A stretch of 64,000 bases of DNA from Aigarchaeota archaeon (GTDB lineage: Archaea > Thermoproteota > Nitrososphaeria_A > Caldarchaeales > Wolframiiraptoraceae), in contig JANXDS010000001.1 of NCBI GenBank assembly GCA_025059205.1, forward strand, positions 202,014-266,013. The letters run 5' to 3'. The position numbers were made by a program, and so were the translations under genes. This document shows positions 39,674 to 47,717 of the stretch, in pieces. The notes beneath the pieces are model-generated. The model saw only the letters and a program-made list of their open reading frames with translations, ran no database searches and was not told the origin of the DNA. Each line of letters starts with the position of its first letter. Position 1 is the first letter of the stretch.

Positions 39674-40975
39674 TTAAATAAAATGGATGCTCGCACCCAG
39701 GCTAGTAAGGTCTCTGAGAAAATTCGGGTAAGATACGTTTGCGGATTCTGCTCCTAATACTGTACACCCTTCTTCTAAGACGAGCCCTAAAAGACAATAG
39801 GCCATAAAGAGTCTATGGTCACCCTTTGGGTCAAGCACGGCATGCTTAACCAGTTTGCCTCGTGTTATACTCAAACCATCCTTCATCTCTTTTACGTTCA
39901 TTCCTACTTTAGAAAGGGCATGGGCAAGAGCACTAACTCTATCGCTTTCCTTAACTCTTGCATGTTCTACGCCGGTTATTTCGACCGTCCCTTCGCATCT
40001 AGTGGTTAGGACCGCCAGAACCGGCAAAAGGTCTGGAAAGTCGGATAAATTAAAGCTACCGCCCTCAAGCTTTCCGCTTCCACTAACGGTTACACGGCCA
40101 TAACTATAATCCGACTTGATGTTGGCTCCCATTTTAGTAAGTATATCTACTATGGCAGCATCGGCTTGAGGTAAATCTTGGCTAAGCCCCTCGACAGTAA
40201 CCGAACCGTCTGTCATAAGAGCTGCAGCCATCATGAAAGAGGCGAGCCCAAAATCTCCCGGTACCGTAAAACGTGCAGGCTTAAAATTCTGTTGTGAAGG
40301 AATATGAAAGACCTTGTACTCTTCTCTCTCTACACTGACACCAAAACGCTCTAGTACTTTTATGGTTGCATCAACATAAGGCCTCGATACGAGATCTCCT
40401 TGTATTGTAAGCGTCGTATCATTTAGAGCCTTTGGTGACGAGAAGAGTATAGAGGATACGAACTGGGATGACACGTTACCGATCATCCAAGCATTACCGC
40501 CTTTTAGTCCACTGCCTTTAACGACTATTGGTGCGCAACCGTTAAGCCTTGTAGACCAGCACTCCCCTCCAAGCATATTAAGGGCATCGAGTAATGGTTG
40601 CATCGGTCTTCTCCTTATGCTTTCATCACCCGTGAGAACTACGTACCCGTCTTGGACTAAGCAACTTACACCAGTCATTATCCTTAACGTGGTTCCTGAA
40701 TTCTGAACGTTCACAACATCATCCGGTGCCTTAGGTACCGAGAAACCACTGACGATGAGTTTGTCGTTTTCCTCTATAATTGATGCGCCGAATTTTTTAC
40801 ACGCGTTGATCGTGGCAAGAACATCGTCGGACTTTGAAACGTTTTCTACAACGCATTCACCATCCGTCATAGAAGCAGCTATTATGGCTCTATGACTGTA
40901 GCTTTTACTTGGAGGTGCTCGCACCCTGCCCGATATTGTCGACGGTCTAACCAAGACTTGCAGCATGATCACCAA
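39674..40975 (-). CDS. aroA: 3-Phosphoshikimate 1-carboxyvinyltransferase (EPSP synthase)
   Basis: Joins shikimate 3-phosphate and PEP to form EPSP. Motifs: PPSKSYSHRAIIAASMTDG (N-terminal shikimate-phosphate site), VQNSGTTLRIMTG, the glyphosate-loop-like GDESIRRRPMQPLLDALNMLG, ARVKESDRVSALAHAL and GDHRLFMAYCLLGLV. The ORF starts at 40975 within aroK; the ATG of residue 4 (40966, MLQVLVRPS) is an equally good start. Last gene of the lysC–asd–aro series. Confidence 0.95.
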   Translation of the reverse strand: MVIMLQVLVRPSTISGRVRAPPSKSYSHRAIIAASMTDGECVVENVSKSDDVLATINACKKFGASIIEENDKLIVSGFSVPKAPDDVVNVQNSGTTLRIMTGVSCLVQDGYVVLTGDESIRRRPMQPLLDALNMLGGECWSTRLNGCAPIVVKGSGLKGGNAWMIGNVSSQFVSSILFSSPKALNDTTLTIQGDLVSRPYVDATIKVLERFGVSVEREEYKVFHIPSQQNFKPARFTVPGDFGLASFMMAAALMTDGSVTVEGLSQDLPQADAAIVDILTKMGANIKSDYSYGRVTVSGSGKLEGGSFNLSDFPDLLPVLAVLTTRCEGTVEITGVEHARVKESDRVSALAHALSKVGMNVKEMKDGLSITRGKLVKHAVLDPKGDHRLFMAYCLLGLVLEEGCTVLGAESANVSYPNFLRDLTSLGASIHFI

Positions 40976-41825
40976 CCCATGAATAAGCTTTTCTGTTGTT
41001 CGGTTTAGCTACTATGAGCTCGCACTCCTTTTCACTCAATGCGTTAATGACGTCGCTTACAGCATCTTTTTTACATACAGCAGCGATGGCTGGACCAGTG
41101 CCGGATAAACCAGCAGCCAAGGCTCCTGCTCTTATAGCGTCCAAAGCCTTCTTCGGACTATAGTTTAACGCCGCCGCATGAAGTATGCCGTTAAGTGTTA
41201 ATGCTTTCCAATATTCTCCGTTCAGAGACATCTTATATGCCTCCTCAACAAGCGACGCGATGGGCCTGAGTGCACTTTTATCAAAAAACTTAGTGTAACT
41301 TTTCAATTCTGGGACTAGCAAAACAACCGTATAGTCTTCTGGAGCCTCTACTCTCCTCACAATCTGCCTCTTTAAGTTATCTGTGATGACTATGCCGCCG
41401 TAATAACTAGCGCAAGCATCGTCGTATGCTCCTGTTATAGTAACGCCAGCCTCGATTGCAGCATCAACACCTATGTTTAGTATGTCGGTATCGCTTAAGT
41501 TTAAGTTTGCAGCTTTTGTTGCAGCCAAAACTACGGCATTTGCAGCCGCACTGGAACTCTTTAACCCTCTGCCTATGGGTATGTTAGAACTGATTTCGAC
41601 ATACGCTCCGCAGTCCATTTGTGCCAGCTTTAAGATCTTACTTACTGCCGCCTTTGCTAATGTTGTGTCTTCATCCGGGTTTTCTTTTATCACGACATGT
41701 ATGTCTCTGCCACCTATTTCCACGGTGGCCTCTGTATAAAGGTCGATACCCATGGCCGCTCCTTTACCGATTGATATGGCATTGACGATGGTTATAGCAC
41801 CATGCACTCTAGCAGTCGCCCTCAT
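40947..41825 (-). CDS. aroK: Archaeal shikimate kinase (GHMP family)
   Basis: Phosphorylates shikimate; unrelated to the bacterial P-loop AroK. GHMP signature PIGRGLKSSSAAANAVVLAA and C-terminal GLSGTGPAIAAVCKK are clear. The start MRATARVHGAITIVNAISIGKGAA at 41825 overlaps the aroE stop as ATGA; the longer frame to 41894 lies wholly in the aroE 3' end and is unlikely. 292 aa fits the family. Confidence 0.94.
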   Translation of the reverse strand: MRATARVHGAITIVNAISIGKGAAMGIDLYTEATVEIGGRDIHVVIKENPDEDTTLAKAAVSKILKLAQMDCGAYVEISSNIPIGRGLKSSSAAANAVVLAATKAANLNLSDTDILNIGVDAAIEAGVTITGAYDDACASYYGGIVITDNLKRQIVRRVEAPEDYTVVLLVPELKSYTKFFDKSALRPIASLVEEAYKMSLNGEYWKALTLNGILHAAALNYSPKKALDAIRAGALAAGLSGTGPAIAAVCKKDAVSDVINALSEKECELIVAKPNNRKAYSWVGDHAASLG

Positions 41826-42682
41826 GTAAAACGACCTATCGCCTCCATAGCAACATTTTTCATAACTTCTATCGGAGGATCCAACGACGTCCACAATTTA
41901 AAGGACTCCGCGGCTTGAAAGAGCAACATTTCCAGCCCGGATACACATATGGCACCTGCTTGCTTCGCCTCTTTCAGGAGTAGTGTTTCAGGAGGATTGT
42001 ACACCATATCCATTACGATGGACCCGCTTCGTATCTGTTCCTTCTTTAGGAGTGAATGGTCTTTATTCGGCCACATACCAACGGGCGTTGCATTGATTAT
42101 TACGCTACAGGTTTTGGTAACTTTAGATAAACTGTTGACGGAAAGACTCGTACCCTCTACAGAAATTTTTACCCTTCGTTTTAAGAAGCTTGCTAGCTTA
42201 CGGGCTTTCGAAGGCGTCCTGTTAGCAAACGTTATGCGATTACAACCAAGCCTGAATAAGGCTAAAGCTGCAGCCGAAGCACCCCCGCCTGAACCAAGTA
42301 TCAAGGCTTCGCACCCACTCAGTAAGTCCTTGTAGGGCATAAGAGCTTTTATTACGCCCAATATATCCGTATTGTATCCAAGCATTCTATCTTTCTTGAT
42401 TACGACGGTGTTCACAGTCTTTATGATCTTGGCATCATCTACAAGCTTATCCAAAAACTTCACGACTTTCTGTTTGTATGGTATCGTTACGTTGAAACCT
42501 ACAGCTCCGAGGGCCTTAAGACCCTTGACTGCATATCCAAGAGCGTTTTTCTCCACATCGAATGCGTTATAGAAATAATCAATGTTCATGTAGTTGAACG
42601 CGGCATTGTGAATGTCCGGTGAAATCGAATGCTTTACCGGATGTCCTATGAGGCCTACAAGTTTTTTGTTACCAAAGCGCAT
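41822..42682 (-). CDS. aroE: Shikimate dehydrogenase
   Basis: NADP-dependent reduction of 3-dehydroshikimate. N-terminus LVGLIGHPVKHSISPDIHNAAFNY binds substrate, with catalytic Lys/Asp in FNVTIPYKQKVVKFLD and YNTDILGV. The nucleotide-binding loop is ALILGSGGGASAAALAL and the NRTPSK motif (FANRTPSKARKLA) confers NADP preference. C-terminal GLEMLLFQAAESFKLW is typical. 286 aa. Confidence 0.96.
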   Translation of the reverse strand: MRFGNKKLVGLIGHPVKHSISPDIHNAAFNYMNIDYFYNAFDVEKNALGYAVKGLKALGAVGFNVTIPYKQKVVKFLDKLVDDAKIIKTVNTVVIKKDRMLGYNTDILGVIKALMPYKDLLSGCEALILGSGGGASAAALALFRLGCNRITFANRTPSKARKLASFLKRRVKISVEGTSLSVNSLSKVTKTCSVIINATPVGMWPNKDHSLLKKEQIRSGSIVMDMVYNPPETLLLKEAKQAGAICVSGLEMLLFQAAESFKLWTSLDPPIEVMKNVAMEAIGRFT

Positions 42683-42700: not shown

Positions 42701-43408
42701 TCACGCTCCGCAATGATTCGAGGAAAGCATGCGAATGACCTCCTTAGCTTCTATGATGCTAGGCTGACCTGGTGCCGTAGGTGCTCCAGGTAATGAGACA
42801 TACATAAAGGGTGCCCCCAACATCAATGAGAGAAACCGTGATAGAATGCCTTCCGTTCCCATGCAGAAGGCGATGAGTCTATGTTTATAGGCAACATTGT
42901 ATAAGGAGAGAACCTTGAGGTTATCGCTAAAAGATTTAGCCATGGTTACAATTTTCACAATACTTCCGCCCTTCATGGATAAATCGACTATCCGTCGTAG
43001 CTCATCAATTTCTGGTGTCTTCTCAAAGTCGTGCCATGAAACTATTACGGTGGTACCTATTTTCATCAACTCTCTTGTGAGCTCCTGAAACATGGGAGAG
43101 CGAAGCTCTATGTCAACATATGCTGGACTTTCTTGACACAACTTCTTGAGGATCTCTGCCCTTTCTTCTTCATCACCCTCGAATAACCCGTTCTCGTAGC
43201 GTGGTCTGAGTGTTAGCAATAGCTTACCCATGTAGGGTCTTAACGCTGAGCTCACAGATTTAACGTCCAACTCTTTCAAGTAATCAAGTCTAACCTCTAC
43301 AATATCTGCGTCACTTTCTATCGCTTTAACCACAGAGTCTTTCAAAGAGTTTACATCTCTTCCAAACGTTGATACGCATAGTTTGAACCGTTCTGTCTTC
43401 ATAAACAT
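42701..43408 (-). CDS. aroD: 3-Dehydroquinate dehydratase, type I
   Basis: Type I class aldolase-fold enzyme forming a Schiff base. DIVEVRLDYLKEL, LLLTLRPRYENGLFEGDEEERAEIL, IVSWHDFEKTPEIDEL (His of the catalytic pair) and KIVTMAKSFSDN (Schiff-base Lys) are all present, followed by PFMYVSLPGAPTAPGQPSI. An ATG at residue 3 (43402) is an alternative start. 235 aa. Confidence 0.95.
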   Translation of the reverse strand: MFMKTERFKLCVSTFGRDVNSLKDSVVKAIESDADIVEVRLDYLKELDVKSVSSALRPYMGKLLLTLRPRYENGLFEGDEEERAEILKKLCQESPAYVDIELRSPMFQELTRELMKIGTTVIVSWHDFEKTPEIDELRRIVDLSMKGGSIVKIVTMAKSFSDNLKVLSLYNVAYKHRLIAFCMGTEGILSRFLSLMLGAPFMYVSLPGAPTAPGQPSIIEAKEVIRMLSSNHCGA

Positions 43409-43438: not shown

Positions 43439-44539
43439 TTACCTTTCTATTATGAATTCGTCTACGGCCACTCCGAAATGTCTGGCTTTCTCCTTGCTTA
43501 TGTATGCTAGTACTTTATCACCCGGCTTAATCTCAGTTACCGAAATGGGCTTACCATCAGCTCCCACAAGCCTTATGGTCTCAGCATTTTGTAGGATTAC
43601 CGTCCCTTCTTCACCGTCAACCTTAGCCTTGACAAGCCTAAGCGGCCTTCTTTCTATCTTCACCCTACCGACAGTAATGGACCTCGCCGAACCTTGCGTG
43701 TTAATTATCAAGACCCTATCACCCGCCTTTATCTCTGACAAATATTTGGTCACACCAGTGGGTGTTAGAACATAGCTATGTATCGCGCCTGCATTTATCC
43801 TAAAAGGTCTCGGCTCCGTGAACGAAGAACCCAAAGATTCGTTGTGTATGAGAAATAGAAAGCTTGCTTTACTTCCAACGAGCATACCTTCCCCCATTAA
43901 TAAAATAGATACGGTATCAACGCATGCCCTGTCTCCCATTCCTACGTCCTTGATCTCTGTAACTTCTGCCGGAGATAACTGAACTTTTGTAAGATAGTTG
44001 ATTGCATCGAAAATTCTACCTATGTCTTCTTTATTCTTTGGTTTGAACAGGACAACATCAACACCTTTCTCTAAGATGCCGTACATCGTCTCGATCTCTT
44101 CTGGACTGCTAACCTTTGTCACGAGTTTTGTTGATGTTTTATGCAGGTATGCGATTATATTTTCTAATGGTATTATCTTCCAGTCTTTAGTGTCAACTAT
44201 CAAAGCTTCAGCGCCTAGTTTTGCCGCGGATATTAACTTCTCTATATCGCTATAACTTTGCACGAAAGCATACACCGCAAACCTCCTAGCTTGCTGCACC
44301 TCTTTACCGAGAGGTATAACAAGAATATCACCATCTGGTGAATCTGAATATATCGTCAGCTTTTGCCTAAACTCTGGGGGAATGTTGATAGGGTCACAAT
44401 AGTACGAGGTAATCCCTTTCGAGAGCGCCTCTCTAAAAATTTCGTCGTCCCAATCTCTTAAATCTATACAAACTTCTTTTTTACTTAGTAGAGACGTCTT
44501 TAAGCACCTCCAAAGCCTCTTTAACTGTGTATCCGTCAA
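43439..44539 (-). CDS. aroB': 3-Dehydroquinate synthase II
   Basis: Archaeal DHQ synthase, unrelated to bacterial AroB; converts 2-amino-3,7-dideoxy-D-threo-hept-6-ulosonate to dehydroquinate with NAD. Recognisable segments: [41 protein letters not shown] (written here from residues ~190-235; [11 protein letters not shown] is diagnostic) and [32 protein letters not shown]. The only usable start is TTG at 44539, which overlaps the upstream ADH synthase gene by 59 nt; a GGAGGTG lies within the overlap. A start nearer [11 protein letters not shown] would need a non-standard codon. Confidence 0.92.
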   Translation of the reverse strand: [366 protein letters not shown]

Positions 44540-45278
44540 TTATTATAGCCTTGAGCGCCTTAGTTATCGCGAACGGGTTATCGTGCTGGAACACGTTCCT
44601 ACCTATTGCCGCACCTATAGCACCAGCGTCCATCGCTTCCTTTACCATCTTCAAAACCTCTAGGTCGCTTTCCGCCTTAGGTCCACCTGCTATAACTATA
44701 GGGACAGGACACCCATCCACGACCTTCCTGAAGGTCTCCGGGTTGCCTATGTACGGTGTCTTTATTATATCAGCTCCAAGCTCAGCACCTATCCTCGCGA
44801 CATGTGCGGCAATGTCAGGGTCGTTTGGATTCTTTATATTCTCGCCCCTTGGATACATCATAGCTATGAACGGTACTTGCCATTCATCACATTCGTCAGC
44901 AAGCATCCCAAGCTTCCTCAACATTTTTGGCTCATCGCTACACCCTATGTTAACATGAACAGAGACGGCATCCGCTCCGAGTCTTAAAGCCTCTTCCACG
45001 CCCGAAACCCTTACCTTGAAGTTAGGTGAGGGTCCTAAAGATGTACTTGCAGAGATGTGTAATATAGTGCCGACATTCAAAGGTTTGGGCATCGTCCGCA
45101 GTATGCCTTTCTGTGCTAAAATTGCTGTAGCCCCTCCGAGGCTGACCTTTTCTATAGTATCGAATATCTTGTCTAAACCTTTTACCGGACCTATAGTAAC
45201 ACCATGGTCCATTGGTATGCAGAGCATCTTTCCTTTTTCCGTGATTCTATTCAGTCTAACTTGCTTTCCAAACACCAT
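44481..45278 (-). CDS. aroA': 2-Amino-3,7-dideoxy-D-threo-hept-6-ulosonate (ADH) synthase
   Basis: Class I aldolase-like enzyme joining aspartate semialdehyde and a deoxyketohexose phosphate in the archaeal start of the shikimate route. MLCIPMDHGVTIGPVKGLDKI near the N-terminus, LGADAVSVHVNIGCSDE, ADIIKTPYIGNPETFRKVVDGCPVPIVIAGGPK (Schiff-base Lys in IKTPY) and AIGRNVFQHDNPFAITKAL are typical of the DhnA/MJ0400 family. 265 aa. It lies between asd and DHQ synthase II, which supports the ADH synthase rather than fructose-bisphosphate aldolase role. Confidence 0.93.
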   Translation of the reverse strand: MVFGKQVRLNRITEKGKMLCIPMDHGVTIGPVKGLDKIFDTIEKVSLGGATAILAQKGILRTMPKPLNVGTILHISASTSLGPSPNFKVRVSGVEEALRLGADAVSVHVNIGCSDEPKMLRKLGMLADECDEWQVPFIAMMYPRGENIKNPNDPDIAAHVARIGAELGADIIKTPYIGNPETFRKVVDGCPVPIVIAGGPKAESDLEVLKMVKEAMDAGAIGAAIGRNVFQHDNPFAITKALKAIIIDGYTVKEALEVLKDVSTK

Positions 45279-45280
45279 GT

Positions 45281-46336
45281 CTACTTTACCCCCCCGGATA
45301 CGTACAATAACTCTGCTGTAAGTATTGCTATACCGGCAGCACCCCTTATCGTGTTATGACTAAGAACGAAGAACTTCAAAGCCCTCTCATCTTTTGCGGG
45401 TCTTATCCTTCCAACTACTACACTCATGCCTGGAACGCTTCCAGCATATATATCGAGCCTTGGTTGTGGTCTGTCCTCCTCTTCCATGACGATTATAGGC
45501 TTCTCAGGAGCTGTAGGAAGTGCTAGCTTTTGTGGAAGACCTTTGAACTCTGCTAGCACGTTTTTTGCATCATCTACGCTCAAAGCTTTTTCTGTCTCAA
45601 TATAGACAGACTCTAAGTGTCCATCTATCGTGGGAACTCTCGTGCAACTGGCCTCGATCGTTATGCGGGTCGGTTCAATAGTTCCATCCTTGAGCCTTCC
45701 CAGTATCTTCTGTGTTTCTTTTTCCACTTTACTTTCCTCGCCTGATATGTATGGTATAACGTTTCCTAGTATGGAAAGCGAAGGTACGCCCGGGAAACCT
45801 GCACCAGATACCGCCTGCATAGTGGTCACCACGACTTTTTTAAGAGTATACGCATCATGCAATGGCTTGAGAGGTATTACTAGACCTACTGTCGTGCAAT
45901 TTGGCGTGGTTACGATGTAACCATCCCACTTCCTATTCTTTTTTTGAACCTCTATCAATTCGATGTGCTCCGGGTTTATCTCCGGCACGATAAGCGGGAC
46001 GTCTTTCTCCATCCTGTGGGCAGAAGCATCGCTTACAATGGGAAACCCTTCTTGTGCGAATAGTGGTTCTGATTCGTGAGCAGCTTCAGTCGGTAGTGGG
46101 GAGAACACCAAGTCTGCGTCAACATACTTCGGCTCGTTAGGTACGACTTCCATATCTGCCACGCTAGATGGTATGTCGATCGGGTTGCCCCTTACTGCCT
46201 CTCCATACTTCTTACCGACAGACTCCTTCCCTGTCACGCATGAAAGTTTGAACCAAGGATGCTTTGAAAGCATGCTTACATATCTTTGACCTACCATTCC
46301 AGTAGCCCCGAGCACAGCAACCTTAATTTGTTTCAT
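45281..46336 (-). CDS. asd: Aspartate-semialdehyde dehydrogenase
   Basis: Reduces aspartyl phosphate to aspartate semialdehyde. [24 protein letters not shown] is the NADP-binding N-terminus, [21 protein letters not shown] carries the catalytic Cys, and [22 protein letters not shown] carries the catalytic His region of the archaeal/fungal branch. 351 aa. The start overlaps lysC by 14 nt and the stop is 2 nt before the ADH synthase start, so expression is tightly linked. Confidence 0.95.
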
Positions 46337-47540
46337 TCAATTCCACCTCCAGATTTGCTTTTATAAGAGAGGCGACTTTTTCTACATCTTTTGCTGACAC
46401 GAATACCCTAATAGACGAGCTTATGGTCACTAAACCGTATATGTTTATACCATTTAGTGCGAGCGGTGCTACCACTTTGTGTATCACCCCTGGACTCGTT
46501 TCAAGCATTCTGCCGCTTATGCTTATGGCGGATAATCCCTCGAAAAAGCTTATAGCCTTACCCGTACCCGATTCCACAACTTCCCTATGTAGCTCATCTA
46601 TAAACTTGGCATCCAAATTCGTGTAAACTATTATGGACTTTTCACCGGTAGTTATGTTGAGAACCTCCCCTTTGTGCCTTTGAACAAATTCTATGACGAG
46701 TTTAACCATTGACGCTCCGTCCGAATTTCTTGAGAGTATTGTTATCATAGTCACTTTAGCCGGATGCACGCTAACTTCAAGCTTTGGAAGTGTGCCGATT
46801 ATGACAGTTCCCGACTTTCCCAGACCTTCCATACTGGACACCCTCAACTTGAGACCCTCTGATAGATATCTTAGTGCCTTCGAATGGATGACCTTTGCAC
46901 CACCTTCTGTCAACAACCTGACTTCGTCCACGTTAAGTGTATCGAGTATCTCGGCCTTACTGACTTTGTCAGGATCTCCTGAGTATATGCCCTCGACATC
47001 TTTTATTAATACAACTTCAGTAGCGTTTAGACAGCTACCTAGAAGTATAGCAGTCGTGTCACTGCCGCCCCTACCCAACGTAGTTATTTTACCTGAGGTG
47101 CTGACACCAATATATCCGCATACGACAGGAACCTTACCAGCCTCGATTAGCGGTAACAGTTTCTCTTTACATCGCTTTTCTGTTTCATGGTATATGGGGT
47201 TTGCATCAAGATGTACGTCATCCGTTATTACAGGCCAGTATTCGTTGGATGGGTCCACTAAAACAGCATCGACACCAAACCTGTTCAACGCAGCCGTAAA
47301 AAGTCTAGCACTAGTCCGTTCACCCATCGCTAGAACCTCGTCGAGCATATCGGGTCGGATATCTGGATTCACCTCCTTAGCCGTCCTCAACAGTTCATCA
47401 GTCATACCCTTCAGTGCAGATACCACCACTACCAGCCCATGTTCTTTCGACAAGTCCTTTACCCAAGACGCCGCTCTTTCAAGAGCCTTAGAGTCTTGAA
47501 GGACAGAGCCACCAAGCTTTATGACCATTATATCCTTCAT
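46323..47540 (-). CDS. lysC: Aspartate kinase
   Basis: Phosphorylates aspartate, first step to lysine, threonine, methionine and, here, aromatic amino acids. IMVIKLGGSVLQDSKALERA begins the kinase domain; GRGGSDTTAILLGSCLNATEVVLIKDVEGIYSGDP is the substrate/ATP site. Two C-terminal ACT domains (~265-400) imply allosteric feedback. I prefer the ATG at 47540: GGGAGGT lies about 8 nt upstream of it but only 1-2 nt before the first ATG (47546). First gene of the lysC–asd–aro operon, preceded by a structured leader. Confidence 0.94.
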   Translation of the reverse strand: MKDIMVIKLGGSVLQDSKALERAASWVKDLSKEHGLVVVVSALKGMTDELLRTAKEVNPDIRPDMLDEVLAMGERTSARLFTAALNRFGVDAVLVDPSNEYWPVITDDVHLDANPIYHETEKRCKEKLLPLIEAGKVPVVCGYIGVSTSGKITTLGRGGSDTTAILLGSCLNATEVVLIKDVEGIYSGDPDKVSKAEILDTLNVDEVRLLTEGGAKVIHSKALRYLSEGLKLRVSSMEGLGKSGTVIIGTLPKLEVSVHPAKVTMITILSRNSDGASMVKLVIEFVQRHKGEVLNITTGEKSIIVYTNLDAKFIDELHREVVESGTGKAISFFEGLSAISISGRMLETSPGVIHKVVAPLALNGINIYGLVTISSSIRVFVSAKDVEKVASLIKANLEVELNETN

Positions 47541-47592
47541 AGACATAACCTCCCTCTAAAGCTGGTAAACAATTAAGAGGAGAGATGGCTTC
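47541..47592 (-). promoter_or_regulatory. lysC leader distal part with strong ribosome-binding site
   Basis: Between the three-way junction and the ATG is AGAGGGAGGT, an unusually strong Shine-Dalgarno sequence for this window, and an upstream CCTCT that could sequester it. This selects the second ATG (47540) as the start. Confidence 0.5.
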
Positions 47593-47680
47593 AGAGAGAG
47601 GCGTCCAGCTCGCTATAGCGATACCAGCGATAGCTGGCCGTGAGGAAAAGGCAATCCCTCACGTTCACCGCCTCTCTTTA
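47593..47680 (-). promoter_or_regulatory. Candidate three-way-junction leader RNA (riboswitch-like) of lysC–aro operon
   Basis: Read on the minus strand, an ~11-bp stem (core AGAGAGGCG, 47669-47677, with CGCCTCTCT, 47595-47603) closes two hairpins: CGTGAGG/CCTCACG (47657-47663 with 47639-47645) and CCAGCT-(AT)-CGCT/AGCG-AGCTGG (47632-47637, 47626-47629, 47611-47614, 47605-47610). A further CCTCT (47577-47581 region) could pair with the AGAGG of the lysC ribosome-binding site. The fold begins at the predicted transcription start. It matches no riboswitch class I can recall. Function is inference from position and structure. Confidence 0.65.
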
Positions 47681-47700
47681 GTAAATTGCGTCTATGTTTG

Positions 47701-47717
47701 TTATTTAAGCGTTTCGA
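47701..47717 (-). promoter_or_regulatory. BRE/TATA promoter of the lysC leader
   Basis: On the minus strand TCGAAACG then CTTAAATAA (47701-47709) form a BRE and TATA box. The box is centred about 26 nt upstream of position 47679, the 5' edge of the leader's closing stem. Confidence 0.6.

Follow-up and report, generated by a model that had tools for sequence, protein, structure and literature searches.

The lysC–asd–aro locus and its leader

The window (the whole stretch of 64,000 nucleotides analysed here) contains an operon on the minus strand that opens with lysC, encoding aspartate kinase, and continues through asd and the genes for 2-amino-3,7-dideoxy-D-threo-hept-6-ulosonate (ADTH) synthase, 3-dehydroquinate synthase (DHQS) II and the later shikimate pathway enzymes (Table 1). 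The downstream genes were named by NCBIfam profiles. The start of lysC is ambiguous, because the ATG at 47546 lies just 2 nt past GGAGG and the in-frame ATG at 47540 is normally spaced; the latter is conserved in most congeners, and is ATA in G004.

In archaea, aspartate semialdehyde and 6-deoxy-5-ketofructose-1-phosphate react en route to dehydroquinate (PMC4162585, where the original work on this route is credited to White). LysC and Asd here catalyze early steps of aromatic synthesis, and the operon encodes one pathway to Phe, Tyr and Trp, not two. The original prediction envisaged joint control of the aspartate and shikimate families of amino acids. Because ADTH synthase (TIGR01949) consumes aspartate semialdehyde toward dehydroquinate (PMC4162585), the puzzle of two families disappears.

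Table 1. Coordinates of the operon genes and leader features in the window.
Feature	Position	Strand	Basis and remarks
lysC, aspartate kinase, first structural gene	46323..47546	-	TIGR00657, above cut-off; start ATG 47546 or in-frame ATG 47540
asd, aspartate-semialdehyde dehydrogenase	45281..46336	-	TIGR00978
ADTH synthase	44481..45278	-	TIGR01949
3-dehydroquinate synthase II	43439..44539	-	best NF002627, E 4e-104, below its cut-off
aroD	42701..43408	-	TIGR01093
aroE	41822..42682	-	TIGR00507
Archaeal shikimate kinase	40947..41894	-	TIGR01920
aroA	39674..40975	-	TIGR01356
TATA-like promoter element GCTTAAATAA	47701..47710	-	read directly in sequence
Shine-Dalgarno-like tract of leader ORF AGAGAGGCGGUGA	47665..47677	-	sequence; also P1 5′ arm region
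Leader peptide ORF MRDCLFLTASYRWYRYSELDASL, 23 codons + UGA	47591..47662	-	three-frame reading; GTG 47662-47660, UGA 47593-47591
Closing stem P1, 5′ arm AGAGAGGCG	47669..47677	-	folding; identical across six congeners; 47677-47669 paired with 47603-47595
P1, 3′ arm CGCCUCUCU	47595..47603	-	folding; adjoins leader stop codon; strand common to helix B
Hairpin P2, perfect, 9 bp	47639..47663	-	folding; holds leader start codon
Hairpin P3, imperfect: 5 bp, 2-nt bulge, 6 bp	47605..47637	-	folding; over Tyr/Trp codons
Helix B, 5′ arm CCUCUCUCUGAAGC	47588..47601	-	folding; extends across leader stop codon; cannot form together with P1; 47601-47588 paired with 47562-47549
Helix B, 3′ arm GCUUUAGAGGGAGG	47549..47562	-	folding; contains lysC Shine-Dalgarno
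Second pyrimidine tract AUCUCUCCUCUU	47575..47586	-	folding; alternative partner of lysC Shine-Dalgarno
lysC Shine-Dalgarno AGAGGGAGGT	47557-47548	-	can pair with pyrimidine tracts

The minus-strand leader upstream of lysC (47679-47547) folds well past chance. The 140-nt leader has a minimum free energy of -56.6 kcal/mol, compared with a mean of -42.1 kcal/mol (sd 4.0) for 200 dinucleotide shuffles, none of which was equally stable (z = -3.65). The TATA-like element is present in five other congeners with unchanged spacing to the stem, which makes the predicted transcription start near 47679 plausible. The predicted stem closing two hairpins is also present on this strand, but the stem (P1) has 9 bp instead of 11 bp, and only P2 is perfect, P3 being bulged. 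P1 does not vary among six congeners and therefore cannot be assessed by covariation. In P3, two pairs are changed on both sides among these congeners, and four other pairs are broken in some of them. The idea that a pyrimidine tract could sequester the ribosome-binding site (RBS) likewise holds up, since tracts in the leader are able to pair with the lysC Shine-Dalgarno sequence. The region is a structured, conserved and probably cis-regulatory leader of the lysC–asd–shikimate operon.

The original prediction overlooked a short ORF that covers P2 and P3 and has its stop codon just past the 3′ arm of P1. Its GTG start lies two bases downstream of a purine-rich tract, giving a start, a stop and an imperfect RBS (GGUGA/GAGG) upstream of the operon. 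Five of its codons (6, 11, 13, 14 and 16) specify Phe, Tyr or Trp. All five positions remain aromatic in six congeners, including a two-base UGG/UAU exchange at codon 13; of the 17 remaining residues after the start, 10 vary. Taken on its own, the window leader has an aromatic content of only p = 0.035 relative to shuffles. Purifying selection at the protein level was not seen in the window genus (16 synonymous versus 53 non-synonymous single-difference codon pairs). The absence of such selection is expected if control codons alone matter; equally, it offers no positive evidence for coding.

Leader ORFs ahead of aro operons in related archaea

Related loci were collected through whole-genome LysC searches and 80 retrieved regions. 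LysC sequences of group 1 are mostly encoded in lysC–(asd)–ADTH synthase–DHQS–aro operons, and the paralogous LysC group has, with one exception, no aro genes nearby. Group-1 lysC genes are preceded by short ORFs ending in aromatic clusters, including SFDYGFYYFGYFP and FFYSFWSYRYFTLA, each followed directly by the stop codon, and FYSFEYSFYYYFN. Further aromatic-rich ORFs at this position are MKAAHFYRFSGYTYYRI, MFNTENLRPSFGKTFDTYSFSYFFYYSF, MRGYNKATKFNWPYYWYYF and one ending in NPYYYYYYYCFF. Between clades the ORF sequences are wholly unrelated, and agree in position, frame and aromatic content.

Across 62 lysC loci that are followed by aro genes, the best aromatic count per 12 residues averaged 6.6, against 2.94 in dinucleotide shuffles. 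The count was significant at p ≤ 0.01 in 37 and at p ≤ 0.05 in 47 of these loci, which are mutually related and do not represent 62 independent events. By the same measure, none of 14 paralogous lysC loci without aro genes reached p ≤ 0.05. Aromatic codons make up 49.5% of the last 15 codons in 58 leaders, against 8% and 11% when the other two frames of the sense strand are read, a difference that follows in part from the choice of these ORFs for their aromatic content. The clusters show UGG in place of UAU or UUU, and indels within the ORFs are multiples of three. In 44 of the 58 leaders, no more than one codon separates the final aromatic codon from the stop; in leaders of the window genus, the final Tyr stands eight codons ahead of the stop.

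Within one phylum the element recurs in about 11 families. Lack of conservation in relatives, which the original prediction had named as grounds for abandoning it, was checked, and the element proved widespread. About a quarter of the aro loci (families f16, f37 and f55) have no clearly significant aromatic ORF, and f3 has only a very short one. A dense aromatic ORF is missing upstream of lysC in f37 and f55 (L146, L158, L182, L185, L186), and some of these loci share another short ORF motif, such as LFGDGVY. A Jordarchaeia lysC (L037) has MWMDYFFMHN, followed by a stop, at the equivalent upstream place, which suggests that the device may extend past the phylum.

An ORF that belongs to the aro operon should precede whichever gene opens it, and ADTH synthase was therefore searched for in genomes lacking a lysC-first operon. 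In G013 and G006 the leader ORF lies ahead of ADTH synthase and has GLWSYWYFGFCYFALA and GLWSYFEFYYFALA, respectively, at its end before the stop; that of G013 is flanked by the same helices as in its sister genus. In G042 and G022, and less strongly in G036, the ORF lies ahead of asd. No clear leader ORF was found in this test in G024, G027 and G039. In G024 and G039, lysC lies apart from the aro genes and has no leader ORF, and G031 retains the leader on lysC–asd though its ADTH synthase gene is elsewhere. Judged by these gene orders, the leader ORF is linked to the aro operon, not to lysC.

No comparable leader was found at 30 pheA loci, and none that was clear at 20 his loci, which means that the device does not serve amino-acid operons in general. 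One genome with a his operon (G372) has a short ORF ending ELHSRQHNHH and a stop (L297, 5246-5306), about 190 bases before the first his ORF and overlapping an upstream ORF.

The original prediction called the leader riboswitch- or attenuator-like. A riboswitch built on the three-way junction, binding lysine, an aromatic amino acid or a pathway intermediate and leaving the ORF as a by-product, would account for the stability of the junction (z = -3.65) and its retention in six congeners beside an RBS-pairing tract. Against this, no Rfam family, the lysine riboswitch and T-box models included, was matched in the window at E ≤ 10, and none reached its gathering score in eight relatives; membership of an Rfam riboswitch or T-box family was accordingly rejected. 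Beyond the genus, moreover, no aptamer-like core is conserved: fold and sequence change entirely and the aromatic ORF stays. We consider a ligand-binding riboswitch extremely improbable. The attenuator-like part of the prediction stands, and the lysine, threonine or shikimate riboswitch gives way to a conserved ORF dense in Phe, Tyr and Trp codons.

Short ORFs containing Trp codons, though few in each, also occur ahead of some trp operons. Directly before trpE, this genome has MPRLWGMCLWQ and a stop (L222, G000:C1:21600-38200), a possible Trp leader peptide, and three congeners (L223, L227, L229) have versions in which CLW(Q/H) and the stop are conserved. Other candidate trp leaders are MRDIIWHYWFNR and MRDRVWAFLH, each followed by a stop, and one beginning MRDNVWHPQ. 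Five trp leaders (L225, L228, L230, L232, L233) start with MRD(N/R/I)(V/I/F)W, similar to the N-termini of some aro leaders: MRDCLF in the window, MRGGSVY in L035, and the complete peptides MRGDCVYNCQ (G023) and MRGGCVYSCQ (G026). An RNA motif common to trp and aro leaders, DTGAGRGRYNNNGTTT, was rejected as a genome-wide element, since it occurs at about control frequency outside trp.

The N-terminal motif MR(D/GD)x(V/L/I)(W/Y/F), common to some trp and aro leaders, and the location of the aromatic cluster at the extreme end of the ORF would suit nascent-peptide arrest, in which a short aromatic peptide stalls the ribosome on free Tyr, Phe or Trp, as in TnaC, rather than on uncharged tRNA. The peptides are, however, highly divergent between clades and keep only their composition, a better fit to codon sensing, and arrest of this kind seems unlikely.

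Alternative helices and a proposed mechanism

Folding revealed a second helix that the original prediction had missed. Helix B (14 bp) buries the lysC RBS and has a duplex energy of -22.6 kcal/mol, compared with -15.6 kcal/mol for the 9 bp of P1. By folding, the two helices share 47601-47595 and cannot coexist: P1 shuts the leader RBS, and helix B shuts that of lysC. With the leader RBS masked, the probability of helix B is near 1 in five of six species, and 0.34 in G003. The lysC RBS is hidden in nearly every modelled state, by helix B or by the second pyrimidine tract; in G003 it is partly open.

Ribosome positions on the leader were also modelled. In the window, the lysC RBS becomes accessible (unpaired probability 0.79) only when the ribosome occupies the leader stop codon; the corresponding values in five other congeners are 0.14-0.42. 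Modelled stalls at the Tyr codons leave it closed in the window, so simple occlusion fails to explain the sign of the switch. The last Tyr is too far from the stop as well, and a starved ribosome would abut the 3′ arm without covering it in the window genus. Occlusion of helix B by a Tyr-starved ribosome is thus unsupported in the window by both stall modelling and codon geometry.

The opening of the lysC RBS solely by a ribosome at the leader stop is what would be expected of a constitutive uORF, translation of which enhances that of lysC with no sensing of amino acids, and coupling through RNA unfolding has been discussed for prokaryotes, archaea among them (PMC12548453). Little coupling was reported in Haloferax volcanii or E. 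coli once the spacing exceeds 30 nt (PMC12548453), however, and the spacing here is at least 44 nt. Such a uORF also gives no reason for the ORFs to be rich in precisely those amino acids that the operon makes, or to be absent at paralogous lysC and at pheA. This alternative appears very unlikely.

In the window, helix B extends as far as the lysC start and there is no U-run, unlike a hairpin-plus-U-run terminator. By inspection, a hairpin at the leader stop codon is followed by U4-5 in G067, G081, G331, G296 and G375. In family f5 (24 Bathyarchaeota-type sequences), a strand immediately upstream of the leader start is paired with an ORF strand ahead of the aromatic cluster, and a hairpin occupies the interval from the stop codon to just short of the lysC RBS. 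In these helices 95% of cells are paired, none of 500 shuffles matched their covariation and pair types, and pairing is lost when the helix partners are shifted against each other; covariation support is confined to this family. In clades other than f5, the hairpin at the stop codon is unrelated in sequence.

The sequences themselves show the ORF with its reading frame and its richness in aromatic codons, the association with the aro operon, and the helices. We propose, with a probability of about 0.8, that the leader is a ribosome-mediated attenuator sensing aromatic amino acids. Translation of the short ORF would start at 47662, and the ribosome would advance according to the supply of charged tRNA-Tyr, tRNA-Phe and tRNA-Trp. 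The position of the ribosome would then fix the fold around the leader stop codon and hence expression of lysC–asd–aro; we infer that the leader ORF is translated and that starvation switches the operon on. The pyrimidine strand at the stop codon of the window leader would pair with either the leader RBS (P1) or the lysC RBS (helix B), and the favoured output in the window, in the folding models, is lysC translation, helix B covering its RBS. Most relatives have a predicted hairpin that begins where the aromatic cluster ends, one or two codons ahead of the stop. Given the footprint generally assumed for a ribosome, one stalled by starvation on the final aromatic codons would cover the 5′ arm of this hairpin. 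For relatives with a hairpin and U-run, we favour transcription termination as the probable output.

Comparison with known attenuation systems

Bacteria are the classical setting of ribosome-mediated attenuation. As regards archaea, a 2021 paper stated that no transcription attenuation was then known (PMC8448881), and a search of mainly openly accessible literature found no paper on an archaeal leader peptide. We judge it likely that archaea of the source phylum, Bathyarchaeota-type families included, control aromatic and probably tryptophan biosynthesis by leader-peptide ribosome-mediated attenuation, with an RBS-swapping variant in the window genus, and that this is the first such archaeal system described. 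If so, ribosome movement would be coupled to gene control in archaea across about 11 families of one phylum, and whether this is ancient or convergent with bacteria would become a question. The leader would also serve as a natural reporter, making archaeal transcription–translation coupling directly testable.

Like the lysine riboswitch (L box, RF00168) and T-box elements, which provide structured lysC leaders or tRNA-responsive leaders in bacteria, the element is a leader RNA, but it has no Rfam match and its information is carried by an ORF. The erm translation attenuators are similar in that the position of a ribosome on the leader controls a helix burying the RBS of the next gene. The erm leaders sense antibiotics by peptide arrest, whereas codon composition here points to charged tRNA. 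The closest resemblance is to bacterial trpL, pheL and hisL, with which the proposed attenuator shares a leader ORF with an RBS, control codons matching the product, alternative helices, a hairpin near the leader stop and a matching operon. It differs from them in that a bacterial 2:3-type antiterminator helix is not seen in most clades, with a possible one in G346, and in that the window helices compete for two RBSs and lack a terminator U-run. It also differs in its archaeal host, and in placing codons for Phe, Tyr and Trp alike before the common trunk of their synthesis, lysC–asd–aro.
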